Source: Comamonadaceae bacterium
Lineage (GTDB): Bacteria > Pseudomonadota > Gammaproteobacteria > Burkholderiales > Burkholderiaceae_C
Direction: 5' to 3'
Assembly (NCBI GenBank): GCA_009996515.1
Contig: JAACZV010000014.1
Span: 67,529-131,528 of the forward strand
Length of the DNA: 64,000 nucleotides
The notes under the pieces were generated by a model, which was not told where the DNA came from, ran no database searches, and saw only the letters and a list, made by a program, of their open reading frames with translations. How positions within the stretch are numbered: the stretch's first letter is position 1; each line of letters begins with the position of its first letter. The position numbers and the translations under genes were made by a program. Positions 6,900-51,722 of this stretch are shown piece by piece.

Positions 6900-8567
6900 T
6901 TATTGAGAAACAGGGCGCAGAAAGGCCTGCAGCGGCCGGCCCGGCAGGCGCTTCAAGCCCTCCACCACCTGGGCGGCGTTGAAGACGGCGCCGGCGTCGT
7001 TGGTGTGCGTGCGGGCGTCGGAGAAGAAGCCGTCGACGCGCTCGGCGCCGGCAGCGCGGTAGGCGTCGGTGATCAGCATCGTCAGGTCGATGAACTGGGC
7101 GCCGCGGGCTTGCGCCACCTGCCGGCCCCAGGCGGCGTAGTTCTCGAAGTCGCGCGGCTGCTCGGGCTTCCAGCGGTCCTTGTGCGGGATGGGCGACAGC
7201 ACGACGACCTGGGCGCCCCTGGCCTTGGCGTCGTCGATGTAGCGGGCCAGGTACCAGCCGAAGCTCTGCACCATCTCCTTCGTGCCGTCGGGCCGCGTGT
7301 CTTCCACGGCCTCGGGGCCTGTGCCGGGCACGGAGCCGCGGTTCTTGCCGGCGGGGTCGCCGATGCGGGCGCCGTCGTTGTGGCCGAACTGGATCAGCAG
7401 CCAGTCGCCGGCCTTCAGCTGCTCCAGCACCGCGGCCCAGCGGCCTTCGGTGAAGAAGGTGCGGCTGCTGCGCCCGCCGATGGCGTTGTTGACGACGTTG
7501 ATGCGCTGCGTGTCGAAGAAGGGCGCCAGGCGCTCGCCCCAGCCGTAGGCGCCGTTCTGGCCGCCGCTGCGCACGGTGGAGTCGCCGATCAGCACCAGGC
7601 TGGGCAGCCTGGGGTCGCGCGGCGCCTCGACCCTGACCTTGCGGGCGTCCACCACGGGGCGGTCGTCCGAGCCGTCGGGCAGGAAGCGCTGCTTGTAGAC
7701 GTCGTCGGGCAGCACCTTGTTCTGGATCAGCCCGGCGATGACGAGTTGCGCATTGACCGCCGCACCCAGCCAGTTGGTGTGCACGGTCTCCTGCGGCGTG
7801 TCGGCCGGGAAGAGCGTCTCGACCGTCGCCTTGCCCAGCGCTTCGTAGCGCAGCGCGCCCCATTCGTTGAGGTCGATGAAGGCGACGTTCTCCTGCCTGG
7901 CGACCTCGGCGGCCCAGGCGGCGAAGTTGCCGCCGGCGCGCGTGACCGTCACGCCATCGGCCTCCCAGCGCTTGCGGATCACCGGCGACGCGACGACGGG
8001 CGTGGCGCCGGCCGCGCGGATCTCGGCGATGTAGCCGCGCAGATAGGCGCCGTAGGTAAAGACCGTCTCGCGCTTGCCGGTCAGCAGGTTGTCGATCTCC
8101 TGCTGCTCCGGGCCGGTGCCGCGCAGCACGCCGCGGGCGCGGCTGTTGTCGTTGACGGGGCTGGCGTCGTTGTGGCCGAACTGCATGACCACCCAGTCGC
8201 CGCGCTTGATGAAGGGCTTGGTGCGCTCCCAGTGGCCGCTGGTGCGGTAGGTGCGGCTGGACAGGCCGCCCACGGCACGGTTGACGACGTTGATCTTGTT
8301 CAGGTCGAGGTAGGCGGCAATGGGGTTGCCCCAGCCCCACTGGCCCTCGGCGCCCTTGCCCTGGCCGTCGTCGCGGCCGTTGCGCACGGTGGAGTCGCCG
8401 ATGAGGATCAGCGACGGCAGCCCGGGCTTCGCCGGCTCGGGCAGCGTGACCTGCGCGCGCGCCGGGTCGGTGGTGGCGGTGAACTCCTGCGCCAGGGCCG
8501 GGGCCAGGGGCAGGGCGAGCAGCAGCGCCGCGAGCGCGCGGCGGGCGAGAAGGGGCGGTGCAGTCAT
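6900..8567 (-). CDS. Tandem two-domain SGNH hydrolase, rhamnogalacturonan acetylesterase type (CE12)
   Basis: A 555-residue secreted protein with two consecutive SGNH/GDSL domains, where the family usually has one. Domain 1 (about 45-285) has GDST with Ser59, GG at 100-101, GHND with Asn133 and His263. Domain 2 (about 320-550) has Ser330, GG at 364-365, GHND with Asn397 and His521. The acidic partner differs: domain 2 has Asp517 four residues before the histidine, domain 1 has Glu260 three residues before it. The family removes acetyl groups from the RG-I backbone so lyases can act. A signal peptide ends near residue 27 (ALAQ). The start is either 8567 or 8576. It is divergent from a PL22-like lyase with a shared operator-like site between them. 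Confidence 0.85.
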   Translation of the reverse strand: MTAPPLLARRALAALLLALPLAPALAQEFTATTDPARAQVTLPEPAKPGLPSLILIGDSTVRNGRDDGQGKGAEGQWGWGNPIAAYLDLNKINVVNRAVGGLSSRTYRTSGHWERTKPFIKRGDWVVMQFGHNDASPVNDNSRARGVLRGTGPEQQEIDNLLTGKRETVFTYGAYLRGYIAEIRAAGATPVVASPVIRKRWEADGVTVTRAGGNFAAWAAEVARQENVAFIDLNEWGALRYEALGKATVETLFPADTPQETVHTNWLGAAVNAQLVIAGLIQNKVLPDDVYKQRFLPDGSDDRPVVDARKVRVEAPRDPRLPSLVLIGDSTVRSGGQNGAYGWGERLAPFFDTQRINVVNNAIGGRSSRTFFTEGRWAAVLEQLKAGDWLLIQFGHNDGARIGDPAGKNRGSVPGTGPEAVEDTRPDGTKEMVQSFGWYLARYIDDAKARGAQVVVLSPIPHKDRWKPEQPRDFENYAAWGRQVAQARGAQFIDLTMLITDAYRAAGAERVDGFFSDARTHTNDAGAVFNAAQVVEGLKRLPGRPLQAFLRPVSQ

Positions 8568-8611
8568 GGCGCGCATGCTAGGAGCGGTGCACGCGGTCGC
8601 AGCGGTGCGAA

Positions 8612-8629
8612 GGCGCAAGTTCTTGAGCG
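8612..8629. promoter_or_regulatory. Candidate RG-I operator S1 between the esterase and PL22-like genes
   Basis: GGCGCA-AGTTCT-TGAGCG: the right half of the shared dyad CGCTCA-N6-TGAGCG is exact and the left half matches 4 of 6. The flanking CTTGAGCGATTGG is identical to the minus-strand reading at the GH43-GH35 operon (51705-51722). The 133-bp gap serves two divergent genes. Confidence 0.45.
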
Positions 8630-8700
8630 ATTGGCGCCCAGCAACATCGCGCAACAGAGCCCGTCCTAGAGTCCCGGCCATCTTGATACGGGCCTCCACC

Positions 8701-10047
8701 ATGTCGATTCGCAAGACCTCCCTGCTGCTGACCCTGCTCGTCGCGCTGGCGCCGGCCTGGGCCCAGATCGGCCAGCGCTTCCCGTCGGAGAAGCGCGTCG
8801 TGCCCGACCCCGTCACCGGCACGCCGCTGACCTTTCTGACGACGCAGCCGCGCGGCGACTCCAAGATCTACCCCAGCCATCCGCAGTGGACGGCCGACGG
8901 CCAATGGCTGGTGTTCCGCTCGGCGCGCGTGAAGGGCGAGGCCATCGCCGTCCACGAGGCCAGCGGCGAGATGGTGCAGGTCACCGAGGGCGGCTACGAC
9001 GGCATGCTCAACCTCGCGCAGTCGGGCGGCAACAAGCTCTACTTCCTGCGCAAGGGCGATGCGCCCAAGGTCATGCAGGCCATCGAGGTGGACCTGGATC
9101 GCGTGTTCGCCGACAGCAAGGCCGGCGCGATGAAGCCGGCCGGCAGCTACCAGCGCGTCATCGGCACGCTGCCGGCCGAGCTGGAGGCGGTGGGCGACAA
9201 CGCGCTGGACGCCGACGGTCAGTGGTTCTACTTCCGCATCCAGGGCAAGGCCTATGCGGGTGCCCGGCTGCCGGCCGGCACCAAGATCGAGCCGCCCTTC
9301 GGCCCGCGCGGCATGGGCGCCGGCCCGCATGCCATCGGCAAGATCCACGTGAAGACGGGCGAGATCCGGCATGTGGTCTCCGTGCCCTTCCAGATCGGCC
9401 ACATCCAGAGCAACAGCTGGAACCCGGGCGAGCTGGTGTTCAGCTGGGAGACGGGCGGCAAGTCGCCGCAGCGCACCTGGACGGTCAAGGGCGACGGCAC
9501 GGGCCTGCGCCCGCTGTATCCCGAGGCGCCCTATGAGTGGGTCACGCATGAGGCCTTCATCGGCAAGGATGAGGTGGCCATGGCCATCATGGGCCACCGC
9601 GCCATCCCGGGTGTCGTCGACCCGAGCCGCGCGCCGGGCACCGACGTGGGCGGTGCCAACCCGGGCCAGGACGCCGCCTGGGGCGACGCCGGCACGCGCG
9701 AGAAACCCACCGGCCTGGCCATCGTCAACCTGCGCACGCGGGAAATGACCATCGCCGGCCAGACGCCCTCGGGCAGCGGCTTGTGGCATGTGCACGGCTC
9801 GCCGGACGGGCGCTTCGCGGTGGGCGACGACTTCAGCCGCAGCCTCTACCTGATCGACCGCAAGACGCGCGAGATGGTCATGCTGACCACCGGCCACAAG
9901 ACGACCGCCCGCGACCATCCGCACCCGACCTTCAGCCCCGACGGCCGCAAGATCCAGATCCAGTCGGCCATGCTGTCGGCCGATGGCCGCGAGATGAATA
10001 TCTGCATCGTGCCGGTGCCGCAGGCCTGGCTGGAGCGCCGGCCCTGA
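8701..10047 (+). CDS. Secreted oligogalacturonate lyase-like beta-propeller protein (PL22-like)
   Basis: A 448-residue protein with a signal peptide (MSIRKTSLLL... APAWA, about 21 residues). The body is built of propeller repeats such as PSHPQWTADGQWLVFRS, SPDGRFAVGDD and HPTFSPDGRKIQI. The HPH pair at 406-408 and WHVHGSPDGR upstream resemble metal-binding histidines of oligogalacturonate lyases (PL22), which cleave short pectic oligomers by beta-elimination with Mn2+. Known PL22 enzymes are mostly cytoplasmic, so export is unusual. TolB-like propellers without lyase activity look similar, so catalysis is inferred. It sits between the CE12-type esterase and the TonB-dependent receptor. Confidence 0.65.
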   Translation: MSIRKTSLLLTLLVALAPAWAQIGQRFPSEKRVVPDPVTGTPLTFLTTQPRGDSKIYPSHPQWTADGQWLVFRSARVKGEAIAVHEASGEMVQVTEGGYDGMLNLAQSGGNKLYFLRKGDAPKVMQAIEVDLDRVFADSKAGAMKPAGSYQRVIGTLPAELEAVGDNALDADGQWFYFRIQGKAYAGARLPAGTKIEPPFGPRGMGAGPHAIGKIHVKTGEIRHVVSVPFQIGHIQSNSWNPGELVFSWETGGKSPQRTWTVKGDGTGLRPLYPEAPYEWVTHEAFIGKDEVAMAIMGHRAIPGVVDPSRAPGTDVGGANPGQDAAWGDAGTREKPTGLAIVNLRTREMTIAGQTPSGSGLWHVHGSPDGRFAVGDDFSRSLYLIDRKTREMVMLTTGHKTTARDHPHPTFSPDGRKIQIQSAMLSADGREMNICIVPVPQAWLERRP

Positions 10048-10416: not shown

Positions 10417-10421
10417 ACAAA

Positions 10422-13400
10422 ATGCTGAAAAATATTCATGGCGGTCTGCCGGTTTTGCGTTGGACGCCGCTGGCCCTGGCCATTTCGGCCGCACTGGCCG
10501 GCCAGGCTCACGCCCAGCAGGCTCCGGCGGCTCCGGCAGCCGCCGAGAAGCCCGCCGATGACAAGGCCAAGGCCGCCGACAAGAGCGCGCAGCAGCTCGA
10601 GACCGTCACCGTCACCGGCATCCGCCGCTCCATCCAGAGCGCTATCGACCGCAAGCGCAACGCGTCCACGGTGACGGACAGCATCGTCGCCGAGGACATC
10701 GACCAGTTCCCGGACAAGAACGTCGGCGAGGCGCTGTCGCGCATCACCGGCGTGCAGCTGACCCGCGAGTTCGGCGAGGGCTCGCAGGTGGCCATCCGCG
10801 GCGTCGAGCCCGACCTGAACCGCGTCGAGATCAACGGCATGTCGGTGCTGGGCACCAGCGGCGGCGCCGGCCGCGGCGCCGAGCTGCGCGAGCTGGCTTC
10901 CGAGCTGATCGCCTCCATCGACGTCGTCAAGGGCTCCACGGCCGACCTGACCGAAGGCGGCGTGGGCGGCACCGTGCGCATCAACACGCGCAAGCCGCTG
11001 GACTTCACCAAGCGCACCATCGCCGGCACGCTGGCGGCCGAGCAGGGCAGCCTGCGCGGCGGCACGCAGCCGCGCGCCACGCTGCTGCTGGCCGACAAGT
11101 TCCTGGACGGCAAGCTGGGCGTCATGGCCAACCTGGTCTACGACAACATCCACACGCGCGGCGACTTCGCCCGCAACACCTCGTGGACCTTCCTGCGCGA
11201 CTGGGACTTCTCGCCCGAGAAGACCGTCACCAGCCTGAACCCCGCCGCCGCCGCCGTGACGACCTCGGCCGGCTGCACCGCGCTGGCCAACAGCAACGAC
11301 CGCAATGCCTGCCTGTCGCAGTGGTTCGATTACGCGCCGCGCATCTCGCGCTACGGCATCTGGGAACGTGACCACAAGCGCAGCTCCGCCGAGGTGACGG
11401 CGCAGTACAAGTTCAGCAAGGACTTCGACGCCTACGTCAGCCACCAGGTCAACACCCAGGCGCAGAAGCTCAACGACATGAACTTCGGCACCGACTTCAC
11501 GGCGATCAACCGGCTGGCCGTGAGCGGCAATGCGCCGGTCTACCGTGCGGACGGCACGGTGCAGACGGCGGGCACCTGCACGGACGTCAGCGCCAGCGCG
11601 ACGCCGGCCGGCATGGTGGTGGAGAACCACCATGTCACGCAGTACACGGTGGGCAACTGCCTGAACGTGGCCGGCCGGGGCGGCCAGGGCGCTTTCAGCA
11701 CCTCGGCGCGCGACTTCGCGCTGGACATCAAGTCCAAGTACAGCACCGCCGGCTTCAAGTTCAAGAACAACAACTGGCGCGTCGAAGGCCTGCTGGGCGA
11801 CTCCCGCTCCGACTACAAGAGCGAGAGCAACAACGTCGTGCTGACGCAGAACGCGCCGGGCCTGGTTGTCAAGCTCGACGGCTCGCGCCTGCCGCAGTTC
11901 ACGTTCCCGGCCGGCTACAGCCCCGATGACGCCGGCTCCTATGTGCAGGCCCAGCTGCAGTACCGCCCGTCGGCGACGCAGAACAAGGAGCGCCAGGGCA
12001 AGCTGGACTTCCAGTACAACTTCGACCACGACTTCTTCCACAGCCTGTGGTTCGGCGGCCAGGCGCGCCAGTCCAGCTCGCGCCAGTACAACGGCGGCGG
12101 CTACCTGGTGCAGAACAACGGCAGCCTGTCCAACACCGAAGAGGCGGTGGACATCAATGCCCGCACGGCCAACGTGAACCAGACCATCGTCTGGGATCCG
12201 CTCTACACCGGCACGGCGCAGCGCCCCAACGACACGCAGAGCTTCATCAACACGGGCTTCAAGACCTCGTACGTGACCGGCTCGCGCATGCAGGAGATCG
12301 TCAACGCGATCCGCACCAAGTCGCCCGGCACCTTCATGGGTGGCTATGGCGACGTCTCCGGCCTGCCCGTCAACTGGACGGCGCCCAGCTACGCGGCCGC
12401 CGCGGCCTCGGGCATCTTTGACACCAGCGACTTCAGCCACAAATACCTGTACGCGACGCCCGGCAGCGACGGCAAGACCTATCCGCAGATCCCGGCCTTC
12501 GACATCACCGAGAAGATCAAGGCCGGCTATGTGCGCCTGGACTGGGGCACGGAGATCCTGGGCATGCCGCTGGACGGCAACGTGGGCGTGCGCTACACGC
12601 GCACCAATGTGCAGTCCACCGGCGTGTTCACGAAGCGTCTGCGCGTCGAAACCTCGCCGGGCAGCACCACCTACAACGACCGCGTCGTCAGCAACACCAT
12701 CGTCTCCATCGACAACACCTACGCGGACACGCTGCCCAGCCTGAACGGCACGCTGCAGCTGCTGCGTGGCAAGCTGCTGCTGCGCGGCGGCTGGGCCAAG
12801 GTGATGGCCCGCCCGGCGCTGAACCTGCTGGCGCCCAACGTCAACTGCATCGAGGGCAGCGGCAGCACGCAGTTCGGCGGCGACGGCACCGACGACTGCT
12901 CGGCCGGCAACCCCGACCTCAAGCCCTACCGTGCCACCAAGTACGACCTGAGCCTGGAGTACTACCCCAGCCGCGACACGCAGGTCAGCCTGGCCACCTT
13001 CCGCACCAACATCGACACCTATGTCCGCACCGGCATCTACCAGCCCGGCGTGAACTTTTTCGGTGACGGCAAGCTGTACGACGTGACCCAGGCCATCAAT
13101 GGCCAGGGCGCGCGCACCCAGGGCATCGAGCTGGCGGGCCGCACGGCGCTGTCCTTCCTGCCCGGCTGGCTGAGCGGCTTCGGCGTGGACGCCAACTACA
13201 CCCGCATGGCCTTCAGCTATGCCAAGGGCAACGAGCTGATCAGCCCGCTGGACAACTCCATGCTGCCCTACCCGGGCCTGTCGAAGAACTCGTACAACCT
13301 GGGCCTGTGGTACGACGACCAGACCTTCAACGCCCGCCTGGCCTATGCCTACCGCGACAAGTACTACACGGGCGGCAACGACGTGTCGGGCAACCCGAAC

Positions 13401-13589
13401 TTCCGCGACAAGACCGGCTACCTGGACGCCAAGTTCCAGTGGAAGGCGACGAAGAACCTGACGTTCTCGGTCGAGGCCAAGAACCTGACCAACCAGGCGG
13501 AGCTGACGTACGCGGGCGACCTGAGCCGCCCCAACGAGCTGGCCTGGTCGGGCCGCCGCTACTACCTGACGCTGGGCTACAAGCTCTGA
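10422..13589 (+). CDS. TonB-dependent outer-membrane receptor, probably for RG-I oligosaccharides
   Basis: A 1055-residue protein with a signal peptide (cleavage after AGQAHA, about residue 31) and an Ala/Pro/Lys-rich linker. The TonB box is ETVTVTG (60-66). A plug domain follows, with DQFPDKNVGEALSRITGVQL, the AIRGVEPDLNRVEINGM segment and a VKGSTADLTEGGVGGTV turn. The remaining ~800 residues form the 22-stranded barrel, ending in YYLTLGYKL. The plug wording matches the Caulobacter/Xanthomonas subfamily used for sugar oligomers. Its ligand is inferred from its place among RG-I lyases. A good GGAGA ribosome-binding site lies inside an inverted repeat. Confidence 0.9.
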   Translation: MLKNIHGGLPVLRWTPLALAISAALAGQAHAQQAPAAPAAAEKPADDKAKAADKSAQQLETVTVTGIRRSIQSAIDRKRNASTVTDSIVAEDIDQFPDKNVGEALSRITGVQLTREFGEGSQVAIRGVEPDLNRVEINGMSVLGTSGGAGRGAELRELASELIASIDVVKGSTADLTEGGVGGTVRINTRKPLDFTKRTIAGTLAAEQGSLRGGTQPRATLLLADKFLDGKLGVMANLVYDNIHTRGDFARNTSWTFLRDWDFSPEKTVTSLNPAAAAVTTSAGCTALANSNDRNACLSQWFDYAPRISRYGIWERDHKRSSAEVTAQYKFSKDFDAYVSHQVNTQAQKLNDMNFGTDFTAINRLAVSGNAPVYRADGTVQTAGTCTDVSASATPAGMVVENHHVTQYTVGNCLNVAGRGGQGAFSTSARDFALDIKSKYSTAGFKFKNNNWRVEGLLGDSRSDYKSESNNVVLTQNAPGLVVKLDGSRLPQFTFPAGYSPDDAGSYVQAQLQYRPSATQNKERQGKLDFQYNFDHDFFHSLWFGGQARQSSSRQYNGGGYLVQNNGSLSNTEEAVDINARTANVNQTIVWDPLYTGTAQRPNDTQSFINTGFKTSYVTGSRMQEIVNAIRTKSPGTFMGGYGDVSGLPVNWTAPSYAAAAASGIFDTSDFSHKYLYATPGSDGKTYPQIPAFDITEKIKAGYVRLDWGTEILGMPLDGNVGVRYTRTNVQSTGVFTKRLRVETSPGSTTYNDRVVSNTIVSIDNTYADTLPSLNGTLQLLRGKLLLRGGWAKVMARPALNLLAPNVNCIEGSGSTQFGGDGTDDCSAGNPDLKPYRATKYDLSLEYYPSRDTQVSLATFRTNIDTYVRTGIYQPGVNFFGDGKLYDVTQAINGQGARTQGIELAGRTALSFLPGWLSGFGVDANYTRMAFSYAKGNELISPLDNSMLPYPGLSKNSYNLGLWYDDQTFNARLAYAYRDKYYTGGNDVSGNPNFRDKTGYLDAKFQWKATKNLTFSVEAKNLTNQAELTYAGDLSRPNELAWSGRRYYLTLGYKL

Positions 13590-13602: not shown

Positions 13603-13680
13603 GCCGGCCCTGCGGGCCGGCCTGGCTCCTGTGTTGCGCTGACAGCGCGTCGGCCCCTGCTCACGCGGGGGCTTTTTTTT
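13603..13680 (+). terminator. Three-hairpin terminator cassette between the receptor and PL11 genes
   Basis: Three consecutive hairpins lie in the 104-bp gap: GCCGGCCC-TGC-GGGCCGGC (13603-13621), GCGCT-GAC-AGCGC (13636-13648) and GCCCC / GGGGC (13653-13672). The last is followed by eight T residues (13673-13680). The T-tract ends only 13 bp before the PL11 start codon. No promoter is visible after it, so PL11 may depend on read-through or antitermination. Confidence 0.85.
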
Positions 13681-13693
13681 GGGCGATCACCTC

Positions 13694-15541
13694 ATGAATC
13701 TTCTGCGTCGTTTCGTTGTCTGCCTGGCGCTGGCCGGGGCCGGCCTGGCCGGGGCCCAGCCGCTGGCGCCCAAGCAGATGGAGCGCCTGGACCGCGGCGT
13801 CGTCGCGCTGGCGACGCCGTCCGGCGTCTTCGTCGGCTGGCGGCTGCTGGGCACCGAGCCGGCCGGCGTGCGCTTCAATGTCTACCGCGATGGCCGGCGC
13901 ATCAACCGCGAGCCGCAGGCGCTGACCAGCCTCGTCGATGGTCAGGGGCGTGCGGACAGCCTTTACACCGTGCGGGCCGTCATCGGCGGCAAGGAGCAGG
14001 CCGCGTCCAGCGCCGTGGCACCGTGGAGCCAGCCCTATCTGCGCCTGCCGCTGCAAAAGCCCGAGGGCGGCGTGTCGCCCGACGGCGTGGCCTACACCTA
14101 CCAGGCCAACGACGGCGCGGCCGCCGACCTGGACGGCGACGGCCAGTACGAGCTCATCGTCAAGTGGCAGCCCACCAACGCGCACGACAACGCGCACAAG
14201 GGCTACACGGGCCACACGCTGCTGGACGCCTACAGGCTGGACGGCACGCGGCTGTGGCGCATCGACCTGGGGCCCAACATCCGCGCCGGTGCCCACTACA
14301 CCAGCTTCCTGGCCTATGACTTCGACGGCGACGGCCGGGCCGAGCTGATGCTGAAGACGGCCGACGGCACGGTGGACGGTGCCGGCCGGGTCATCGGCGA
14401 TGCCCGCGCCGACCACCGCAACGCCGCCGGCTTCGTGCTGGCCGGCCCGGAGTTCCTGACCGTCTTCAACGGCCTGACCGGCGCGGCCATGGCCACCGTG
14501 CCCTACACGCCGGCGCGCGGTGGCCAGGGCGAGGCCTGGGGCGATGCCTACGGCAACCGCGTGGACCGCTTCCTGGCCGGCGTGGCCTACTTGGACGGCC
14601 GGCGCCCCAGCGCCGTGTTCGCGCGCGGCTACTACACCCGCGCGGTGCTGGCGGCCTGGGACTGGCGCGATGGCAGGCTGACGCAGCGCTGGGTCTTCGA
14701 CAGCGACAGCGATGCCGCCAGCAAGCCCGCCGCGGGGCAGGGCGCGCACTGGTTCTCGGTGGCCGACGTGGACGGCGACGGCCGCGACGACATCGTCTAC
14801 GGCGCCGCGACCATCGCGAGCTCCGGCCGCCTGCTCTACAGCACCGGCCTGTGCCATGGCGACGCGCTGCACGTCAGCAGCTTCGACCCGGCGCGCGAAG
14901 GCCAGCAGATCTTCATGGTGCACGAGAGCCCGCGCTGCTACGGCGAGCATGGCCTGGAGATGCACGACGCCGCCACCGGCAAGATCCTGTGGAGCATGCC
15001 GGGCAACCACAGCGACGTGGGCCGCGGCGTCTGCTTCGACATCGACCCGGCCCACCCCGGCGCCGAATGCTGGGGCAACGTGGGCGGCCTGATGAACGCG
15101 AGCGGCCAGCGCATCAGCGACAAGCATCCCAACCGCTACAACTTCGCCGTCTGGTGGGACGGCGACCTGCTGCGCGAGTCGCTGGACCATGTGTCCATCG
15201 ACAAATGGAACCCCGCTGTCTTCAAATTCGAGAACCTGCTCAACGGCAAGGCCTTCGGCGCCGCCTCCAACAACGGCACCAAGGGCAACCCGGTGCTGTC
15301 GGCTGACCTGTTCGGCGACTGGCGCGAGGAAGTGGTCTGGCGCAACGAGGACAGCAACGCGCTGCTGATCTTCTCGACGACGGCGCCGACCCAGCACCGG
15401 CTGGTGACGCTGATGCACGACCCGCAATACCGCGTGCAGGTCGCCAACCAGAACGCCGGCTACAACCAGCCGCCGCACACCAGCTACCACCTCGGAGCCG
15501 CGATGAAGCCGCCGCGCTACCTGCCCATCATCACGCCATGA
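13694..15541 (+). CDS. Rhamnogalacturonan lyase, polysaccharide lyase family 11
   Basis: A 615-residue secreted enzyme (signal peptide ending LAGA, about residue 23). It resembles B. subtilis YesW/YesX: an N-terminal fibronectin-like part (GVFVGWRLLG... FNVYRDG) and an eight-bladed propeller. It carries calcium sites such as DLDGDGQYE, DFDGDGRAE and DVDGDGRDD, the HKGYTGHTLLDAY segment, and a C-terminal ADLFGDWREEVVWR motif typical of PL11. It cleaves the Rha-GalA backbone of RG-I by beta-elimination. The ribosome-binding site is poor. Its stop overlaps the next gene in ATGA, so the two form a coupled pair. Confidence 0.93.
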   Translation: MNLLRRFVVCLALAGAGLAGAQPLAPKQMERLDRGVVALATPSGVFVGWRLLGTEPAGVRFNVYRDGRRINREPQALTSLVDGQGRADSLYTVRAVIGGKEQAASSAVAPWSQPYLRLPLQKPEGGVSPDGVAYTYQANDGAAADLDGDGQYELIVKWQPTNAHDNAHKGYTGHTLLDAYRLDGTRLWRIDLGPNIRAGAHYTSFLAYDFDGDGRAELMLKTADGTVDGAGRVIGDARADHRNAAGFVLAGPEFLTVFNGLTGAAMATVPYTPARGGQGEAWGDAYGNRVDRFLAGVAYLDGRRPSAVFARGYYTRAVLAAWDWRDGRLTQRWVFDSDSDAASKPAAGQGAHWFSVADVDGDGRDDIVYGAATIASSGRLLYSTGLCHGDALHVSSFDPAREGQQIFMVHESPRCYGEHGLEMHDAATGKILWSMPGNHSDVGRGVCFDIDPAHPGAECWGNVGGLMNASGQRISDKHPNRYNFAVWWDGDLLRESLDHVSIDKWNPAVFKFENLLNGKAFGAASNNGTKGNPVLSADLFGDWREEVVWRNEDSNALLIFSTTAPTQHRLVTLMHDPQYRVQVANQNAGYNQPPHTSYHLGAAMKPPRYLPIITP

Positions 15542-26345: not shown

Positions 26346-26632
26346 TGGCGGGGCTTGTTGTCGGCTTCGACTTCCATCAGCGGGGCCATGTAGTCCCACC
26401 AGCGGCGCATGACGGGCTGCAGCGGCAGCGCGTCGAAGGCCGGGCCCGGCCGGCGCTTGAGCACGGCGAACAGGCTCAGCGTGGCCTCGTCCAGGAAGAT
26501 GGAGTAGTCATGGATGCCGGCGCCGCGCAGCGCCTCGGCCAGCTCCGGCCACAGCTCGTCGTGGCGCTTCTTGTACTCCGGCACCACGCCGGGTTTGAGC
26601 TGCATCTTGAAGGCGAGGATCTCGTCGCTCAT
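26309..26632 (-). CDS. rhaM: L-rhamnose mutarotase
   Basis: Interconverts alpha and beta anomers of L-rhamnose so that the isomerase gets its preferred form. The 107-residue protein has the expected length, the RHDELWPEL segment with the catalytic histidine, IHDYSIFLDEATLSLFAVL, and the MRRWWDYMAPLM signature. The ATG is preceded by AGGAG at good spacing. It is cytoplasmic. Its position between GH28 and DUF6250 ties polymer breakdown directly to rhamnose use. Confidence 0.93.
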   Translation of the reverse strand: MSDEILAFKMQLKPGVVPEYKKRHDELWPELAEALRGAGIHDYSIFLDEATLSLFAVLKRRPGPAFDALPLQPVMRRWWDYMAPLMEVEADNKPRQWPLPSVFHFAG

Positions 26633-37033: not shown

Positions 37034-37107
37034 GGACTCTAGGCAGGGGGCTTGGCGGCGTGTGGTCAAGCGCGTGAGCGTTTCGCATGCGCTCAAGCGC
37101 GTGAGCG
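37034..37107 (-). promoter_or_regulatory. Tandem candidate RG-I operators S4 and S5 upstream of PL4
   Basis: S4 (37063-37080) is TGGTCA-AGCGCG-TGAGCG and S5 (37090-37107) is CGCTCA-AGCGCG-TGAGCG, with centres 27 bp apart. Toward PL4, the minus strand carries CCTAGAGTCC (complement of 37034-37043), identical to 8665-8674 in front of the PL22-like gene. GTGAGCGTTTCG beside S4 is also found beside S3. Confidence 0.6.
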
Positions 37108-44134: not shown

Positions 44135-45298
44135 TCAGATGAAGCGGACGAGCAGCTCGCCCATGGCCAGCAGCGCCATCGCCTGCCCGAAGGGCATGGA
44201 GGTCAGCGGGATGTCCTTGTATTCCTGCAGCGTGTTGAACACCGGGGTGCCGAAGCTCACCTGCGTCAGTTCGCCGGCGTCGTTGATGTGGCGGCGCACG
44301 GCCAGCGCGGCCTTCAGGCCCAGGGCCTCGTAGTCCCTGGAGATATAGCCCTTGCGGACCGCCTTCAGGATGCCGTAGGCGAAGCCGGCCGAGGCGGCGG
44401 CCTCGTCGTAGGAGGTCGGGTCGTCTAGCAGCGTGGGCCACAGGCCGGACGGCGACTGGCATTGCGCGAGTGCCTGCACCTGCGCCTCCAGCGTCGTGAT
44501 GAGGAACTGGCGGAAGGCATCGCCCTCGGGCAGGTTCAGCAGCTCGATGAACTCCGGGATGACGATGGTGACCCAGGAGTTGCCGCGCGCCCACAAGGCG
44601 TTGGCGAAGTTGTGGCGGCCCTCGAAGGTCCAGCCGTGGAACCACAGGCCGGTCTTGCGGTCGGCCAGGTATTTGATGTGGACGAGGAACTGGCGCTTGG
44701 CCTCCTCGATGTAGTGCGGGCGGTTCAGCAGCAGGCCGAACTTGGCCAGCGGCAGCACCGACATCATCAGCGTGTCGTCCCACAGCTGCTGGTGGTTCAC
44801 GCTGTTGTAGACGATGTGCTGGAAGCCGCCTTCCTCGGTGCGCGGCAGCTCGTTATAGACCCACTCGGCCCAGCGGTCGATATAGGGCAGGAAGCGGCGC
44901 TCGCCGGTCCGCTCGAACAGATAGGCCAGCGTCAGGAAGGGCGCCACCGTGTTGATGTTGCGGCTGGGCATGCCTTCGGCGAAGCGCGCCTCGAACCAGC
45001 TCGTCATGATGTCCCAGGCCTTAGGGTCGCCGGTCAGCTCCCAGACCTTGTAGACGCCGTACAGGCCCACGCCATGGGTCCATTCGAAGCCGTTCCAGCC
45101 CTTGGTGTCCAGCACGCGGCCGTCGTCCAGGCGCAGCAGGAACTTGCCGTCCTTGTCCTCGATGTTGATCAGGTTGTGGATCAGGCGGTCGATGGCGCCG
45201 CGGATGTCGTCGCGGTCCGCGCCGAGGTGGGCCGTGTGATGGGCCAGCAGCGGGTGGATCTTGGAGGAATCGACGGGCTTGAGGATCTGCTTGGACAT
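44135..45298 (-). CDS. Unsaturated rhamnogalacturonyl hydrolase, GH105
   Basis: A 387-residue (alpha/alpha)6-barrel enzyme like B. subtilis YteR. WDDTLMM (173-179) carries the conserved aspartate that hydrates the double bond of the unsaturated GalA (Asp143 in YteR). KGWNGFEWTHGVGLYG, FHGWTFEGRHNFANALWARGNSW and DEAAASAGFAYGIL are typical of the family. No signal peptide, so cytoplasmic. It frees rhamnose from lyase products, feeding RhaM/RhaI. It lies 23 bp after GH2 and 7 bp before the symporter. Confidence 0.93.
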   Translation of the reverse strand: MSKQILKPVDSSKIHPLLAHHTAHLGADRDDIRGAIDRLIHNLINIEDKDGKFLLRLDDGRVLDTKGWNGFEWTHGVGLYGVYKVWELTGDPKAWDIMTSWFEARFAEGMPSRNINTVAPFLTLAYLFERTGERRFLPYIDRWAEWVYNELPRTEEGGFQHIVYNSVNHQQLWDDTLMMSVLPLAKFGLLLNRPHYIEEAKRQFLVHIKYLADRKTGLWFHGWTFEGRHNFANALWARGNSWVTIVIPEFIELLNLPEGDAFRQFLITTLEAQVQALAQCQSPSGLWPTLLDDPTSYDEAAASAGFAYGILKAVRKGYISRDYEALGLKAALAVRRHINDAGELTQVSFGTPVFNTLQEYKDIPLTSMPFGQAMALLAMGELLVRFI

Positions 45299-45321: not shown

Positions 45322-47724
45322 TTAGAGCTTGAGCTCGGCCGGCGCGAGGCCGGGGGCCGTGACGCGCAGGCGCGCGGGTGGGGCGGGGTCGGTGCGGCGC
45401 AGCACGGCCAGGCCGCGGCCCTCATGGGCGGCGTGCTCGGCGTCGCGCGGGTCGTCCACGTCGGCGAGGTTGCCGTTGCCGATGCCGAGGATCTCGACGG
45501 GCCCCTGCAGCTCGAAGCGCAGGCGCTGGGCCGCGTCGGGCACACGCCGACCTTGAGTGTCCACGACGAAGAAGGCGATCTGCTCGATGCCGTCCTGGGC
45601 CGGCGCCACGCGTTCCAGCGTGATGCGCGCGGCGGCCCCGGCGGTCTGCAGCCTGAACTCGGCGACCGGCTGGCCGTCCTTCAGGCCTACGGCCTTGAGC
45701 TCGCCGGCCTCGAAGGGCAGGGTCCAGCTCAGGATGCCCTCGACGGCGTCGGCGGCCTGCTGCGTGCCGATGAGCTTGCCGTTCAGCCACAGCTGCACCT
45801 CGGGCGTGTTGGCATAGGCGGACACGACCATGGACTCATCCGCCGGCCAGTTCCAGTGCTCGGCCACCTTGGCGCGTTTCTGCTGGTCCAGCAGCGGCGT
45901 GCCCTGGCCGGAGGCCGAGGCGACCTGCGTGGCCGACGCGGTGGCGGCGGCCAGGTACACCACCGGCTTGTCGCTCCACAGGCTGGCGCGGAAGGCGCCG
46001 CGCGGCTTCATGAATCCGGCCAGGTCGAACAGGCCGAAGTCCGCGGCGCGCAGCGGCCAGCGGCCGGCCTCGCCCAGGTAGTCGAAGCCGGTCCACAGGA
46101 ACTGCGCGCTGATGTAGGGCGTGTCGCGCACGACGGCCCAGGCCCGGTAGTCGTGGCGGTTCTCGCTGCCGTAGATGACGCGCTTCGGGAACTTCGCATG
46201 GTCGGCCGCGTAGCGGGCTTCCTGGTAGTTGTAGCCGGCGACATCAAAGAGGTCGGCAAAGCCCACCGCGTCGCTGATGTCCACCGAGGCCAGCGCCGCG
46301 GTGACGGGGCGCGTGGGGTCCAGGCGGCGCACCGCGTCCACCAGCGGCCGGCCCCAGCGCACGAGGTCGCTGGCCGGCGGCGCGGCCGGGCGGTACCTGG
46401 CGCCCAGCACGGGGTGGGAGAAGGGGTCGTTGGGGTAGTCGACCTCGTTGCCCACGCTCCACATGATGATGCTGGGATGGTTGCGGTCGCGCCGCACCAT
46501 GTCTTCCACGTCGCGCACGCCCCACTGCGCGAACTCCTCGCCATAGCCCTGGCGGCCCGGCACGCCGACGTTCCAGCCCTCTATCCACTTGTTCTTGGTG
46601 GGCGTGAATTCGTCGAAGGCCTCGGCCTGCACCAGGAAGCCCATGCGGTCGGCCAGGTCCAGCAGCTCGGGCGCCGGCGGGTTGTGGCTGGTGCGGATGG
46701 CGTTGACGCCGATGTCCTTCAACTGCTGCAGCCGGCGCTGCAGCACCGCCACCGGCACGGCCGCGCCCAGGCTGCCGGCGTCGTGGTGCAGACACACGCC
46801 CTTGAGCTTCAGGGCCTGGCCGTTCAGGAAGAAGCCCCGGTCGGCATCGAAGCGGAACGTGCGGATGCCGAAGGGCGTGTCGGTCCGGTCCACCGGCTGG
46901 CCCTGCACCAGCACGCTCTGGCGCAAGGTGTAGAGGGCGGGTGTGGCGATGGACCAGCGCTGGGGCCGCTCGACCGACAGCGACTGCGACAGCGCGCGGC
47001 GCTCGCCGGCGGCGAGCCGGGCCTGGGTTTCGCGTGTGGCGACGATGCGGCCGTCCGGCGCGACGACCTCGCTGCGCAGCGTGAAGCGGCGGGCCTCGGC
47101 CGCGGCGTTGACCAGCTCGGCCTGGGCCTTCACGTCGGCGCTGGCCGCGTCGACCTTGGGCGTCGTCACATAAGTGCCCCAGGGCGCGATGTGCAGCGCG
47201 TCGGTGAAGCTCAGCCGCGCGTCGCGGTAGATGCCCGAGCCGGTGAAGTAGCGCGAGTCCATCTGCCGGGAGTGGTCCACGCGCACGGCCAGCACGTTGG
47301 GGCTGCCGTCGAACTTGAGGTAGGGCGTCAGCTCGAACTGGAAGCTGCTGTAGCCATAGGGCCGGCCGCCCACGTACTGGCCGTTGATCCAGACCTGGGC
47401 ATGGTCGTAGACGCCGTCGAACGTGATGCGCGCGACGCGGCCTTTGTGCTCGGCGCCCACGGCGAGGCTGCGGCGGTACCAGGCGATGCCGCCGGCCGCA
47501 TAGCCGTTGCCGCTGCCGTACTCGGCGCGCAAGGGCTCGTGCTGGCTCCAGTCGTGCGGCACGCGCACGGCCTGCCAGCCGCTGTCGTCGAAGGCCGGCT
47601 GCATGGCGGCGCCGGGGTCGCTCTTGCTGAAGCGCCAGCCGCTGTCCAGCGTCTGCTCCTGGCGCTGGGCCAGGGCAGCGCCGGCAAGCGCCAGCAGGGC
47701 GATGGCGAGGCAGCTGCGGCGCAT
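45322..47724 (-). CDS. GH2 beta-galactosidase, secreted
   Basis: An 800-residue enzyme with a signal peptide (ALAQ, about residue 20). The order is a jelly-roll (VPHDWSQHEPL, YDHAQVWINGQYVGGRPYGYSSF), two Ig-like domains and a TIM barrel with Glu427 in WSVGNEV (acid/base) and Glu521 in YGSENRHD (nucleophile), then additional C-terminal Ig-like domains (VEILGIGNGNLADVD). LKGVCLHHDAG and RTSHNPP are typical of GH2 beta-galactosidases. It probably trims beta-galactan side chains. The gene starts 2 bases after the GH43-GH35 stop. Confidence 0.9.
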   Translation of the reverse strand: MRRSCLAIALLALAGAALAQRQEQTLDSGWRFSKSDPGAAMQPAFDDSGWQAVRVPHDWSQHEPLRAEYGSGNGYAAGGIAWYRRSLAVGAEHKGRVARITFDGVYDHAQVWINGQYVGGRPYGYSSFQFELTPYLKFDGSPNVLAVRVDHSRQMDSRYFTGSGIYRDARLSFTDALHIAPWGTYVTTPKVDAASADVKAQAELVNAAAEARRFTLRSEVVAPDGRIVATRETQARLAAGERRALSQSLSVERPQRWSIATPALYTLRQSVLVQGQPVDRTDTPFGIRTFRFDADRGFFLNGQALKLKGVCLHHDAGSLGAAVPVAVLQRRLQQLKDIGVNAIRTSHNPPAPELLDLADRMGFLVQAEAFDEFTPTKNKWIEGWNVGVPGRQGYGEEFAQWGVRDVEDMVRRDRNHPSIIMWSVGNEVDYPNDPFSHPVLGARYRPAAPPASDLVRWGRPLVDAVRRLDPTRPVTAALASVDISDAVGFADLFDVAGYNYQEARYAADHAKFPKRVIYGSENRHDYRAWAVVRDTPYISAQFLWTGFDYLGEAGRWPLRAADFGLFDLAGFMKPRGAFRASLWSDKPVVYLAAATASATQVASASGQGTPLLDQQKRAKVAEHWNWPADESMVVSAYANTPEVQLWLNGKLIGTQQAADAVEGILSWTLPFEAGELKAVGLKDGQPVAEFRLQTAGAAARITLERVAPAQDGIEQIAFFVVDTQGRRVPDAAQRLRFELQGPVEILGIGNGNLADVDDPRDAEHAAHEGRGLAVLRRTDPAPPARLRVTAPGLAPAELKL

Positions 47725-47726: not shown

Positions 47727-50700
47727 TCAGCGCTGCAGGTTGCGCGGCTGGGCCACGGCTTGCAGCGGCACGCCGCCGCGGGCCACGGCCAGCGGCACCA
47801 GCTTCACGGCTTCCAGCGCATTGGCCGCATCGCCATCGGTGGTGACGGCCAGCGTCAGCGTGTTGTCGCCGTTGGGGTTCAGGATGCCCGGCGGCAGCAC
47901 GAAGACGCGCTGCGGGCCGATGTGGGCGATGAACTGGCCCAGGTTCCAGCCGTTGACGAAGATCAGCGCGCGGTTCTCGCGCTCGGAGCGCGGCTTCGTC
48001 GTGTCGCCGAAGGCCAGGCCCAGCTGCACGTCATGGCCTTGCGGCAGGTCCAGCTTGAACTGGGTGCGCAGCCAGTAGGTGCCGGGAGCCGGTGGCGCGG
48101 CGCCGGGCGTGGTGGCCGCCCAGCCCGGCTGCGGCTTGGCCGGGTCAACGGGCAGGTGCCAGCCCATGCGCTCGCCGTGCAGGCCGCCGTTGTTCAGCGG
48201 GCCGCGCACCAGGTCGGCGATGTCCTCGCCGCCCTTGTTGCCCTGGATCTTCCAGGCGATGGGCGTGCCGAAGCGCTGGCCGCCCTTGGGGCTGAGCGAC
48301 GCGGCGATCAGGCCGCGGGCCTCCTTGTGCACGTCGTCGGCGAACAGGTCCCAGTTGTGCGAGTTGTTGCGCACGACCACGGCGATGACATGCTCGCCCG
48401 GCGACAAGTCCTTCAGCAGATGCCGGAAGGTGTCGGTGGTCTCGGGGAAGGGGCGGCCGGTGTCGTGGTCCTGCTGGCCGATGAATCGGCCGTCCACCCA
48501 GACCTGGATCATGCCGGCGCCGCCGCCGCCGAAGAACAGCTCCAGCTGCAGCGGTTTGCTGTCGGTGGTCGTGAAGCGGCCGCGGTACCAGACGTCGCCG
48601 TGATGGAAGCCGTAGTCGCTCATGGCCAGCACCGGCTGGCCGCGGTCGGGCGCCGTGTAGACGTTGGCGGCCGACACGGCGGCGTCGGCCTGGCGCCAGC
48701 CGCTGTCGTCAAATTTCGGGTCGGCTTCCAGCGAGTCGAAGCGGCGGGTCCAGGCGGTCTGCGCGAGGTCGGGCAGGCGCACGGCGTCGGGGCCGGCCAG
48801 CGTGGTGCGAGCCACCAGGCTCAGGTCCTGCGCAGCCGCGGCGACGGCCTGGCCGTTGAAGCTCACGGCGTTGACGCCCTCGGGCACCCAGGCGCGCAGC
48901 GTGCTGGGCGCGGTGGTGTCGCCGGTCAGCTGCAGCGTCTTGCCGTTGACCGCGGCGCTGCGCACCAGCGCCGGGCTGCGCACCAGCACGGCCTGCCCGC
49001 CGGCCTGCAGGCGCCAGAACTCCCAGCCGGTCTTCTCGTCGGCCAGCAGCAGCAGCAGCGGGGCGCGGCCGCCGCCGCTGATCAGCACCTCGATCAAGCC
49101 TTTGTGAGCGTAGTTCAGGCGCAGGTCGCCGCGCTGGGCGTCCCAGTTCACCTGGGCGCTGCCGCGCAGGAATTTCACGCTGGGTTTGCTGGCATAGCGC
49201 AGCACGGTCTCGCCATCGTCGCCGTCGCGGCCGTACAGCAGCGCCAGGTCGCGCGGGCCTTGCTGCAGATGGGTCTGCAGCTCGCTGGTGCTGTAGACCA
49301 GGTGCTGGCGCTCCAGCGCGTAGCTGGCCAGCAGCATCTTGGCGTCCTGGCCGGTCAGCGTCAGCCGGCCGGCCTGGGGGATGGCGTAGCTGCCGTCGCG
49401 CGTCGTCAGCTTGAAGCCGAAGGCCGCGGTGCCCGTCAGGTGGTTGTGCTGCGCCAGCAGCACATGGCTGCCCAGCGCCTTGTTGACGTTGTGATAGAGG
49501 CGGATCTTGTCGTGGCCCGGGTCCAGCACCTCGCCCTTGTCCATGGCCGCCAGCACCGGTGTGGCCGCCTGCACGAAGCTGCCCATCTGCTTGAGCACCA
49601 GCGCCTTGTCGCGCATCACGCGGGCCTCGTTGATGGGCGAACCGTAGTCGTAGCTGGTGTAGACCACCGGCCCGCCCAGCCAGCCCCAGCTGGTGCCGCC
49701 GAAGGCCATGTAGATGGAGTGGATGGTCAGCGAGTTGATCAGGCTGCTGCCGTAGAACACGCGCTGGTAGCCTGGGCCCTGGCGCTTGGCCGTGCATTCG
49801 TAGGTGCCGTTGCTGCCCCAGTAGTCGAACCAGCCCGCGCCGATCTCGGCGACGAAGCCCGGCGTGTTGGGCGAGGCGAGCGACCCGACCTTGGGGAAGT
49901 TCTTGCCATAGATGCCCCAGTCCGGCGCCGGTGCCGGCGTGCCGGGCACGCCGTGCACGTCGCAGATGCCGCCGGGGTAGCCGTCGAAGGCGTAGAGGTC
50001 CGTCGGGCCGGGGTTGGCGAAGGGGGCGGTGGAGTTCCTGGGCGTCCAGTCGGGCAGGCGCGACGCGGCGTTGTGGAACAGCGGCACGGTGATGCCGTCG
50101 GCGCGCGCCTTGTCCGCCAGGTGCTGCATGTGGCGGATGTTCTTGGGGTTCACCGCGAACAGCTCGTTTTCCAGCTGGTAGGCGATGACGTTGCCGCCGC
50201 CGTTGGTGATCTGGTGGCGGGCCAGGATGGCATTGATCTGCGTCATCCACTCGTCGGTGGCGGCCTGGTACTCGGCCGCGTCGGTGCGGGCCTCGACGCG
50301 CTGGCGCAGCAGCCAGCCGGGGAAGCCGCCGGCCGTCAGCTCGGCGTTGACGTAAGGCCCCATGCGGGCGATCACGTACAGGCCTTCCTCCTCGGCCATC
50401 TGGATGGCGCGCTCGACGTTGCGTATGCCGGTGAAGTCGTAGTGGCCCGGCTTTGCCGAGTGGTAGCCCCAGCTGAAGTAGAAGGCCACCGCATTCAGGC
50501 CCGAGGCCTTCATCTTCTGCAGCACGTCGCGCCACAGGCTGGGCGAGGGCAGGCGGAAGGGATGGAACTCGCCGCCGAAGATCATCTCGCGCTTGCCGTC
50601 GATGATCAGCGAGTGGCGGTCCCAGGCGATGGTCTTGGGCTTGTTCTTGGGCGCGGTCACGCGCTCCAGCTGCGCCGTGTCTTCGGCGATGACGGTGAAA

Positions 50701-51647
50701 TGGCGCACCGTGCCCGACACGCCGCCCAGCTCCTTCTTGGGCGTCCAGGTCTGGAAGCCGTCGAAGCTGTCGGAGTACCAGTAGCGCTTCGTCATGTAGT
50801 CGTCGAAGTAGATGCGCCAGCCGGATCTGCCGTCGGCGCCCTTCACGGGCACCAGCGCCTGGCCTTCCGACGGGCCACCCCAGCCGGCCCAGTCGCCGGT
50901 TTTCTGCAAGGTCCAGGGGCCCGCCAGCGCCGGCGCGGTGGCCAGCTCGATGAACTTGCTCGTCTCGTTCTTCGCGAACGCGACGTAGCGGCCCTCGTGG
51001 TGGACGACGAAGGTGTCGATGTAGTTGTTCTCCAGGCCCTGCATGGGCAGGGGGGCGGAGAACTTCGTGAGGCCGGCATCCAGGGCCTTCAGCACGAAGG
51101 CGCCGAACGGGCCCTGGGTGCCGGAGCTGGACAGGCTGACGATGATGTTCAGGCTGCCGTCCACGTCGCGGAACCATTCCGGCGCCCAGACGTTGCTGAC
51201 CTGGGCAGCGCCGCCCGGCAGCGCCACCGGCACGTCGGCCACATGCGTCCAGTTCTTCAGGTCGACCGATTTGGCGATGCCGAAGGTGGAGCCCGTCCAG
51301 TTGGTGGTGTAGACGATGTAGTAGAGGCCGTCCGCGGCGCGGATGATGGAGGGGTCGCGCAGCAGGTCCTTGGGCGGCTGGTAGACCTCGGAGCCCAGCG
51401 AGGTGAAGGTCACGCCGTCGCTGGAGGTGAACAGGCTCAGCTGGTTCTGCGACGTGGCCATGAAGGCCGACATCAGATAGGTGCGCTCGCTCTTGGCCAC
51501 GGGCGCGGCGGCCTGGGCCGGCGTGCTGACGGCGGTGGGCGGCAACTGGCCCGGCAGATCCTGGGCCTGGACCGACGCACAGAGCAGCAGGGTGGCGAAC
51601 CAGACGGCGCGAGGCTGGGTCAGGGCGGACGGCAGGGTGGCAGGCAT
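47727..51647 (-). CDS. Two-enzyme fusion: GH43-like domain joined to GH35 beta-galactosidase
   Basis: A 1306-residue secreted protein (signal peptide ending VQAQ, about 29). Residues 55-325 form a GH43-like propeller with candidate catalytic Asp98 (RDPSII), Asp211 (YIDTF) and Glu261 (PSEGQ). Residues 338-700 form a GH35 barrel with FGGEFHPFRLP, acid/base Glu495 (YQLENE), nucleophile Glu601 (FVAEIGAGWFDYW) and MAFGGTSWGW. The rest is the set of beta domains usual in large GH35 enzymes, ending NGWNLGQFI...RVFVLPPGIL. Normal GH35 proteins lack the front domain. The fusion could remove arabinose and galactose from the same side chain. First gene of the second operon. Confidence 0.9.
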   Translation of the reverse strand: MPATLPSALTQPRAVWFATLLLCASVQAQDLPGQLPPTAVSTPAQAAAPVAKSERTYLMSAFMATSQNQLSLFTSSDGVTFTSLGSEVYQPPKDLLRDPSIIRAADGLYYIVYTTNWTGSTFGIAKSVDLKNWTHVADVPVALPGGAAQVSNVWAPEWFRDVDGSLNIIVSLSSSGTQGPFGAFVLKALDAGLTKFSAPLPMQGLENNYIDTFVVHHEGRYVAFAKNETSKFIELATAPALAGPWTLQKTGDWAGWGGPSEGQALVPVKGADGRSGWRIYFDDYMTKRYWYSDSFDGFQTWTPKKELGGVSGTVRHFTVIAEDTAQLERVTAPKNKPKTIAWDRHSLIIDGKREMIFGGEFHPFRLPSPSLWRDVLQKMKASGLNAVAFYFSWGYHSAKPGHYDFTGIRNVERAIQMAEEEGLYVIARMGPYVNAELTAGGFPGWLLRQRVEARTDAAEYQAATDEWMTQINAILARHQITNGGGNVIAYQLENELFAVNPKNIRHMQHLADKARADGITVPLFHNAASRLPDWTPRNSTAPFANPGPTDLYAFDGYPGGICDVHGVPGTPAPAPDWGIYGKNFPKVGSLASPNTPGFVAEIGAGWFDYWGSNGTYECTAKRQGPGYQRVFYGSSLINSLTIHSIYMAFGGTSWGWLGGPVVYTSYDYGSPINEARVMRDKALVLKQMGSFVQAATPVLAAMDKGEVLDPGHDKIRLYHNVNKALGSHVLLAQHNHLTGTAAFGFKLTTRDGSYAIPQAGRLTLTGQDAKMLLASYALERQHLVYSTSELQTHLQQGPRDLALLYGRDGDDGETVLRYASKPSVKFLRGSAQVNWDAQRGDLRLNYAHKGLIEVLISGGGRAPLLLLLADEKTGWEFWRLQAGGQAVLVRSPALVRSAAVNGKTLQLTGDTTAPSTLRAWVPEGVNAVSFNGQAVAAAAQDLSLVARTTLAGPDAVRLPDLAQTAWTRRFDSLEADPKFDDSGWRQADAAVSAANVYTAPDRGQPVLAMSDYGFHHGDVWYRGRFTTTDSKPLQLELFFGGGGAGMIQVWVDGRFIGQQDHDTGRPFPETTDTFRHLLKDLSPGEHVIAVVVRNNSHNWDLFADDVHKEARGLIAASLSPKGGQRFGTPIAWKIQGNKGGEDIADLVRGPLNNGGLHGERMGWHLPVDPAKPQPGWAATTPGAAPPAPGTYWLRTQFKLDLPQGHDVQLGLAFGDTTKPRSERENRALIFVNGWNLGQFIAHIGPQRVFVLPPGILNPNGDNTLTLAVTTDGDAANALEAVKLVPLAVARGGVPLQAVAQPRNLQR

Positions 51648-51704
51648 GGCAAACCGAGAGTGCGTGGATCCTCGGCCAGTGTCCCCTCGTTTGTCGGCAC
51701 CAAT

Positions 51705-51722
51705 CGCTCAAGCGCGTGCGAG
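51705..51722 (-). promoter_or_regulatory. Candidate RG-I operator S6 in front of the GH43-GH35 operon
   Basis: CGCTCA-AGCGCG-TGCGAG: the left half and spacer are identical to S5 and the right half is altered. Read on the minus strand, CTTGAGCGATTGG matches the S1 flank exactly. It sits 58 bp upstream of the GH43-GH35 start and 84 bp upstream of ftsY on the other strand. Confidence 0.5.

Follow-up and report, generated by a model that had tools for sequence, protein, structure and literature searches.

Why should genes for L-rhamnose catabolism lie between, and even overlap with, genes for pectin-degrading enzymes? This question is raised by a locus in a 64-kb window (the whole stretch of DNA analysed here) on contig C14 from the genome of a Comamonadaceae bacterium (4.58 Mb, 99.85% complete). 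The locus extends from the gene of a double SGNH protein (position 6900) to that of a GH43-GH35 fusion protein (position 51647), and is bordered from 51716 on by a gene for an SRP-type GTPase, taken to be ftsY. We propose, with a probability of about 85%, that it represents a carbohydrate utilization locus containing a TonB-dependent receptor (CUT locus) for rhamnogalacturonan I (RG-I), with the L-rhamnose pathway built in; activities, locations and regulation are deduced from the sequence. The host is regarded as Roseateles-like because a PL26 protein of the window has 80–86% identity with its counterparts in eight Roseateles/Pelomonas-type loci. An earlier note on this DNA had also read the locus as an RG-I system joined to rhamnose catabolism, and this reading is backed by the gene families, their nearest solved relatives, gene order, gene overlaps and a common candidate operator. 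What appears to be new is the arrangement of overlapping rha and RG-I genes in one apparent operon with a common candidate operator. Searches of an open-access library found no account of this kind of locus in betaproteobacteria, Roseateles included.

Candidate open reading frames were chosen by G+C content at codon positions and then scanned against Pfam and NCBIfam; several gene starts were read by eye, and operon calls rest on spacing. The profile scans recovered each gene class of the earlier note where it had been placed or close by. Matches were present for PL4, PL11, two PL26, GH105, GH28, two GH2, GH43 and the GH43-GH35 fusion, for three SGNH domains, the TonB-dependent receptor (TBDR), a GPH symporter, DUF6250, a DeoR regulator and rhaM, rhaI, rhaK and rhaEW. 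The “two other hydrolases” of that note correspond to a beta-lactamase-fold and an alpha/beta hydrolase (Table 1). The nearest solved relatives point to the RG-I backbone. For the PL11 protein these are YesW, a PL11 protein and YesX, for the PL4 protein rhamnogalacturonase B, and for PL26a PcRGLX (5xq3, E 2.7e-246), all three domains of which are present in both PL26 copies. The GH28 protein is nearest to the exo-poly-galacturonosidase 3jur, and the GH105 protein to 3pmm, 3qwt and 4xuv, followed by YteR. For two putative esterases the NCBIfam matches stayed under the cut-off: the double SGNH protein matches PaeY distantly, and the top name for the beta-lactamase-fold hydrolase is methyl acetate hydrolase AcmB, with all models shown being under cut-off. 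The start of each PL26 protein and of the GH43 protein carries a twin-arginine motif recognised by eye; these motifs agree with the earlier claim of export by the twin-arginine translocation (Tat) system, the export itself being deduced from them.

On the minus strand, rhaI and the GH28 gene overlap by 1 base, GH28 and rhaM are separated by 29 bases, rhaM and the DUF6250 gene overlap by 37 bases, and DUF6250 and GH2 by 4 bases; PL26b and GH43 come next. Because these genes overlap or nearly touch, rhamnose catabolism and RG-I enzymes are probably encoded in one operon. Spacing likewise suggests a second minus-strand unit, consisting of the genes for the GH43-GH35 fusion, GH2, GH105, GPH, PL26a, SGNH and the beta-lactamase-fold hydrolase. 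The rhaM product, which exceeds the Pfam cut-off, reaches a score of 92.4 with the NCBIfam model TIGR02625 (cut-off 99.6).

Conservation was assessed by comparing the window proteins with 80 loci and by fetching stretches around DUF6250 from five Roseateles-type genomes. The Roseateles-type set comprised eight loci (L010–L015, L017 and L044, with L013 labelled Burkholderiales only), and paralogue cross-matches were left out of the locus counts (double SGNH protein, 28–31%; GH2b, 26–27%; PL26b on PL26a). The earlier note had suggested a synteny check; here, GH43-GH35, GH105, GPH, PL26a, SGNH, beta-lactamase-fold hydrolase, rhaK, deoR and rhaEW follow each other in the same order in all eight loci. 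Moreover, rhaI, GH28, rhaM and DUF6250 stand together in 5/5 fetched stretches, and the group of double SGNH, PL22-like, TBDR and PL11 genes is found in all four stretches that reach this part (L136 ends before PL11-TBDR). Such constancy of the core order and of the rhaI-GH28-rhaM-DUF6250 group makes it extremely improbable that unrelated carbohydrate genes were brought together here by chance or only recently. That explanation could appeal to truD (16556–17581), which splits the locus and is followed by frames without Pfam match up to about 19000, and to the uneven distribution of some genes, as PL4 is present in six and GH2a is matched in two of the eight loci. It could also point to PL26b, for which none of the five fetched stretches showed a match and which may therefore be a local gain.

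The joining of rhamnose catabolism to the RG-I system, which the earlier note had emphasized, is supported by the conserved order, the gene overlaps and the common candidate operator, but it is not special to this lineage. In six loci of the actinobacterial genus Nonomuraea (L032–L035, L077, L083), PL26 is directly followed by the rhamnose genes rhaM, rhaI and rhaEW, so that the link between RG-I and rhamnose is wide. Unlike the locus described here, the fetched Nonomuraea stretches have no match to our TBDR, GPH and GH105 proteins at E ≤ 1e-10.

The candidate operator is a palindrome, CGCTCA-N6-TGAGCG, conserved in aligned upstream regions. Exact copies occur three times in the 4.58-Mb genome, and two of them are within this locus. 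The third is located on contig C4 (G000:C4:205683; about 8684 in L141), about 50 bp before a gene for a 769-residue TBDR. Among 14 stretches from 9 genomes (three pairs overlap by 0.5–2.4 kb), the 13.8 kb that precede selected operons contain ten exact copies, eight at rhaEW and two at PL4; the remaining 330 kb contain none. When up to two mismatches are allowed, 28 copies fall in these 13.8 kb and 52 in the other 330 kb. Per operon, such copies are found at rhaEW in 9/9 cases, at PL4 in 7/7 and at the double SGNH gene in 4/5; the intergenic region common to the latter and the PL22-like gene was counted for the SGNH gene, and the value of 0/5 for the PL22-like gene is a labelling effect. Genome-wide, 40 places match with at most one mismatch compared with 24 for a reversed control pattern. 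Therefore, only exact or conserved copies carry weight, and the 40 places were not taken as regulon members. The DeoR regulator gene adjoins the rha genes, as in the DeoR-type RhaR regulon. The sites of DeoR-type RhaR have been described as imperfect direct repeats of 10–11 bp (PMC3870299). At rhaEW, the window and several relatives show an 11-bp direct repeat, TGAGCGTTTCGTGAGCG; the operator signal counted here is an inverted repeat.

In the following scheme, every activity, location and regulatory step is deduced, whereas gene families, order, overlaps and the motif are observed. Exported PL4 and PL11 lyases would cleave the backbone of RG-I, acetyl groups would be removed from it by SGNH and other esterases, and GH2, GH43 and GH43-GH35 enzymes would trim galactan and arabinan side chains. 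The TBDR is predicted to carry the pieces across the outer membrane into the periplasm, where Tat-exported PL26 together with the PL22-like protein could shorten them. The GPH symporter would then import the unsaturated galacturonate-rhamnose unit, which cytoplasmic GH105 (and GH28) may split. RhaM, RhaI, RhaK and RhaEW would convert rhamnose to dihydroxyacetone phosphate and L-lactate, while the uronate half would pass to KduD, Eda and a KdgK-like kinase, whose genes lie elsewhere. We hypothesize that the rha and RG-I genes are coordinated via CGCTCA-N6-TGAGCG by a DeoR repressor whose action a rhamnose intermediate relieves.

Table 1 Features of the locus by position in the window, followed by two sites on other contigs
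Feature	Position	Strand	Profile match	Remark
Two-domain SGNH (GDSL) protein, probable RG-I/pectin acetylesterase	6900..8567	-	PF13472 x2	start by eye
PL22-like beta-propeller, probably exported	8701..10047	+		start by eye
TBDR	10422..13589	+	TIGR01782 type	
PL11 rhamnogalacturonan lyase	13679..15541	+	PF21348, E 1.7e-234	
Lipoprotein, weak GH43-type propeller	15538..16530	+	PF04616, E 9.5e-6, under Pfam cut-off	lipoprotein by eye
Alpha/beta hydrolase	19037..19825	-	PF00326	start by eye
GH43	19822..20859	-	PF04616, E 5.6e-64	twin-arginine motif
PL26b (second PL26 copy)	20915..23644	-	PF21346/21345/19501	twin-arginine motif
GH2	23674..25581	-	PF02836 + PF02837	
DUF6250 protein	25578..26345	-		YesU-like lectin/glucanase fold
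rhaM, L-rhamnose mutarotase	26309..26632	-	PF05336, over cut-off	
GH28	26662..28044	-	PF00295	no signal peptide seen by eye
rhaI, L-rhamnose isomerase	28044..29339	-	TIGR02629, 720 bits, over cut-off	
rhaEW, rhamnulose-1-P aldolase/lactaldehyde dehydrogenase	29460..31568	-	NF006189 + TIGR02632, over cut-off	
Candidate operator	31747..31764			exact; between deoR and rhaEW
DeoR-family regulator, candidate RhaR	31986..32885	+	PF00455 + PF08220	
rhaK-type FGGY sugar kinase	32906..34276	+	PF21546 + PF00370	
Small PEP-CTERM protein	34322..34990	-	PF07589	adjoins PL4
PL4 rhamnogalacturonan lyase	35149..36975	-	PF09284 + PF14683 + PF14686	
Candidate operator	37090..37107			exact; upstream of PL4; 2-mismatch copy at 37063
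Beta-lactamase-fold serine hydrolase, probably esterase	37225..38481	-	PF00144	
SGNH acetylesterase (third SGNH domain)	38494..39744	-	PF13472	
PL26a, exo-type rhamnogalacturonan lyase	39746..42472	-		twin-arginine motif
GPH sugar symporter (MFS_2)	42469..44127	-	PF13347; TIGR00792 under cut-off	
GH105/88, candidate unsaturated rhamnogalacturonyl hydrolase	44135..45298	-	PF07470	no signal peptide by eye
GH2	45322..47724	-	nearest models beta-galactosidases, under cut-off	
GH43-GH35 fusion	47727..51647	-	PF04616 + PF01301	single frame
KduI/KduD observation site (L140)	G425:C23:321259-321870			
KduI/KduD observation site	G000:C1:88728-89471			

Several observations weigh against an RG-I locus of this kind. 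A curated NCBIfam model names the GH105 protein beta-galactosidase BglB, over cut-off, which speaks against the usual reading of a GH105 protein. Neither the DeoR protein nor the kinase is named by NCBIfam over cut-off, the best names being UlaR and L-fuculokinase, both under it, and protein localisation rests on reading by eye. Some operons have a weak operator or none (at most two mismatches: TBDR 2/5, GH43-GH35 1/9); the motif came to light in these very promoters, so that its enrichment does not amount to a blind test; and no RG-I gene was seen by eye among the neighbours of the operator-bearing TBDR gene on C4. A sixth Roseateles-type genome (L015) has its only DUF6250 match on another contig, and our RG-I genes were not found around it (L133). 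Finally, KduI (PF04962) has no match in the genome of the window at E ≤ 0.001. The BglB name and the missing KduI, together with four side-chain enzymes, would also fit a locus mainly for galactan or arabinogalactan (GH2, GH35, GH43) beside an independent rhamnose operon, where the role of the lyases is limited to exposing side chains and the backbone does not serve for growth. We regard this as unlikely, since the locus encodes four backbone lyases of the PL4, PL11 and PL26 types, the GPH-GH105 pair is kept in 8/8 loci, and rha and RG-I genes overlap and have a common candidate operator.

The earlier note had placed the enzymes of the uronate branch elsewhere in the genome, and they were indeed located off this locus, with the correction that a recognisable KduI is not among them. 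The genome has two over-cut-off matches to KduD and two Eda-type aldolases on C9. The better KduD match, on C1, sits in a homogalacturonan locus with PL22, pectinesterase, pectate lyase, SGNH, TBDR, IclR regulator and sugar-binding protein genes, the last of these beside frames read by eye as an ABC permease and ATPase. The same C1 locus encodes a PfkB kinase, for which the best model is KdgK (351.5, cut-off 400). The second KduD match (C11) was not counted as pectin-related; its neighbours are a GatZ/KbaZ-type protein, an amidohydrolase, LacI, MFS and TBDR. In a search of the genus that included this genome, KduI was found in one of 20 genomes and KduD over cut-off in 17/20; in the sole genome with KduI (G425 C23), the gene lies directly before KduD. 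Because KduD is kept without recognisable KduI in most of the genus, another isomerase or a spontaneous step is needed. An RpiB-family gene on C2, which adjoins a KduD-like dehydrogenase gene under the KduD cut-off, was considered as a replacement and dropped, as the surrounding open reading frames read by eye like fatty-acid genes.

How does the locus relate to known systems? RG-I polysaccharide utilisation loci (PULs) of Bacteroidetes contain overlapping enzyme families. They have a SusC/SusD pair, whereas here a TIGR01782-type TBDR is present and no SusD domain was found in the locus proteins scanned, a search that covered this locus. The earlier description as a PUL without SusD is correct in this respect, but such loci are already a known class, the CUT loci, in which genes for enzymes, inner-membrane transporters and regulators lie beside TBDR genes (PMC1790865). 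All of these are found here: enzymes next to the TBDR, the GPH inner-membrane transporter and the DeoR regulator. Xanthomonas CUT loci likewise combine a TBDR beside enzymes, an inner-membrane transporter and a sugar regulator without SusD; they serve sucrose, xylan, polygalacturonate or maltodextrin instead of RG-I, and our locus differs further by the rhamnose pathway inside and by its betaproteobacterial host (PMC1790865). The RG-I genes of Bacillus subtilis encode the same PL11 (YesW/YesX), GH105 (YteR), acetylesterase (RhgT) and YesU-fold types, and the B. subtilis control genome also matches the PL26 domain. In contrast to Bacillus, uptake here would proceed via a Gram-negative TBDR, and the rha genes are inside the locus. 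The importer is of the GPH type, whereas ABC transporters are described for Bacillales (PMC3870299). The RhaS regulon of Erwinia with rhiTN also places rha genes and a rhamnogalacturonide transporter-hydrolase pair under one rhamnose regulator; RhaS is of the AraC type, in contrast to the DeoR-type protein and the larger enzyme set here (PMC3870299). Taken as a whole, the locus offers a near-complete plan of RG-I utilisation for Roseateles-type betaproteobacteria that is open to testing, and an entry to two unassigned protein groups, DUF6250 and the PL22-like proteins that the present Pfam model does not cover.

The PL22-like protein had been named as such in the earlier note, and it is indeed a distant PL22 relative as judged by profile, fold and polar core, but it lies outside the Pfam PL22 model: Pectate_lyase22 gave no match at E ≤ 1e-3. 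A single-sequence search of the PDB returned weak matches only (3pe7, E 0.016), and a three-sequence profile was therefore needed. This profile reaches 3c5m with E 2.6e-8 (hmmsearch), and its comparison with the genome's own PL22 by hhalign gave 97.4%. A structural model from three sequences (mean pLDDT confidence score 70.5) has 3pe7 as best Foldseek match in the PDB (E 1.8e-18), with the first non-PL22 match at 9.6e-11. In a 10-sequence alignment, residues common with the own PL22 include H234, Q236, E250, R258, W260, H283, E284, H363, H406 and H408 (window numbering). H234, R258, H283, H363, H406 and H408 presumably have the catalytic roles of the PL22 polar core. Four Roseateles-type stretches as well as L114 and L130 have the gene paired with that of the double SGNH protein, while Sunxiuqinia (L079) and Mangrovibacterium (L084) encode relatives close to PL26. 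The protein may be a PL22-type lyase of the periplasm that has adapted to RG-I pieces.

For the DUF6250 protein, no paper under this name was found in an open-access library. Among 398 genomes, DUF6250 and PL26 have seven carriers each, five of which carry both while two have only the one and two only the other (Fisher p 5e-9; 2e-7 without the own genome). In Duganella guangzhouensis both are fused in a single frame (L134:8245-11829), and in Sunxiuqinia (L079) and Mangrovibacterium (L084) DUF6250 also lies near PL26. A structural model resting on five sequences has Bacillus YesU as best fold match. The five-sequence profile gave chance-level PDB matches only (best E 0.84; YesU 1OQ1 absent at E ≤ 10), so the link to YesU comes from the fold. 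YesU, the gene of which adjoins rhgT, has no signal peptide (PMC6120924). Eight polar residues are invariant in the five-sequence alignment (E52, R108, D111, N113, N149, N151, R155, R157 in the window protein). We tentatively suggest, as an idea that is more doubtful than secure, that DUF6250 and YesU form one structural family of RG-I-specific PL26 partners, lectins or enzymes, across phyla. On this view, the published binding of fucose glycans by YesU would follow incidentally from its recognition of a 6-deoxy-L-sugar in pectin, and the polar set would even allow a new enzyme class. It is quite conceivable, if short of an even chance, that DUF6250 is instead a domain that binds carbohydrates generally, without being specially linked to RG-I. 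Its fold neighbours include lectins, CBM66 and GH16, and 4 of 16 neighbourhoods outside this genome (L118, L119, L131, L133) have no match to the RG-I gene set within about 9 kb, with 10 of those 16 genomes having been picked for carrying PL26. Moreover, the DUF6250 proteins of L118 and L119 are nearer to ours (46%) than RG-I-linked ones outside Roseateles (33–40%). Against a general domain stand the co-occurrence and the fusion with PL26 as well as the YesU fold. Because of this fold and the fusion, seen once, work on DUF6250 could settle the role of YesU beside the Bacillus RG-I genes.

In Pelomonas sp. V22 (L131, 5920–9886), the neighbour of DUF6250 is a Reg_prop-Y_Y_Y-GGDEF sensor protein and not an RG-I enzyme. 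The small PEP-CTERM protein next to PL4, found like PL4 in 6/8 Roseateles-type loci, carries an exosortase-type sorting signal, an unexpected feature inside a pectin locus. A 91-bp intergenic element, within which an inverted repeat can be made out by eye, is present in two copies of 96% identity, one between rhaEW and rhaI (29360–29450) and the other downstream of PL4 (35010–35100).

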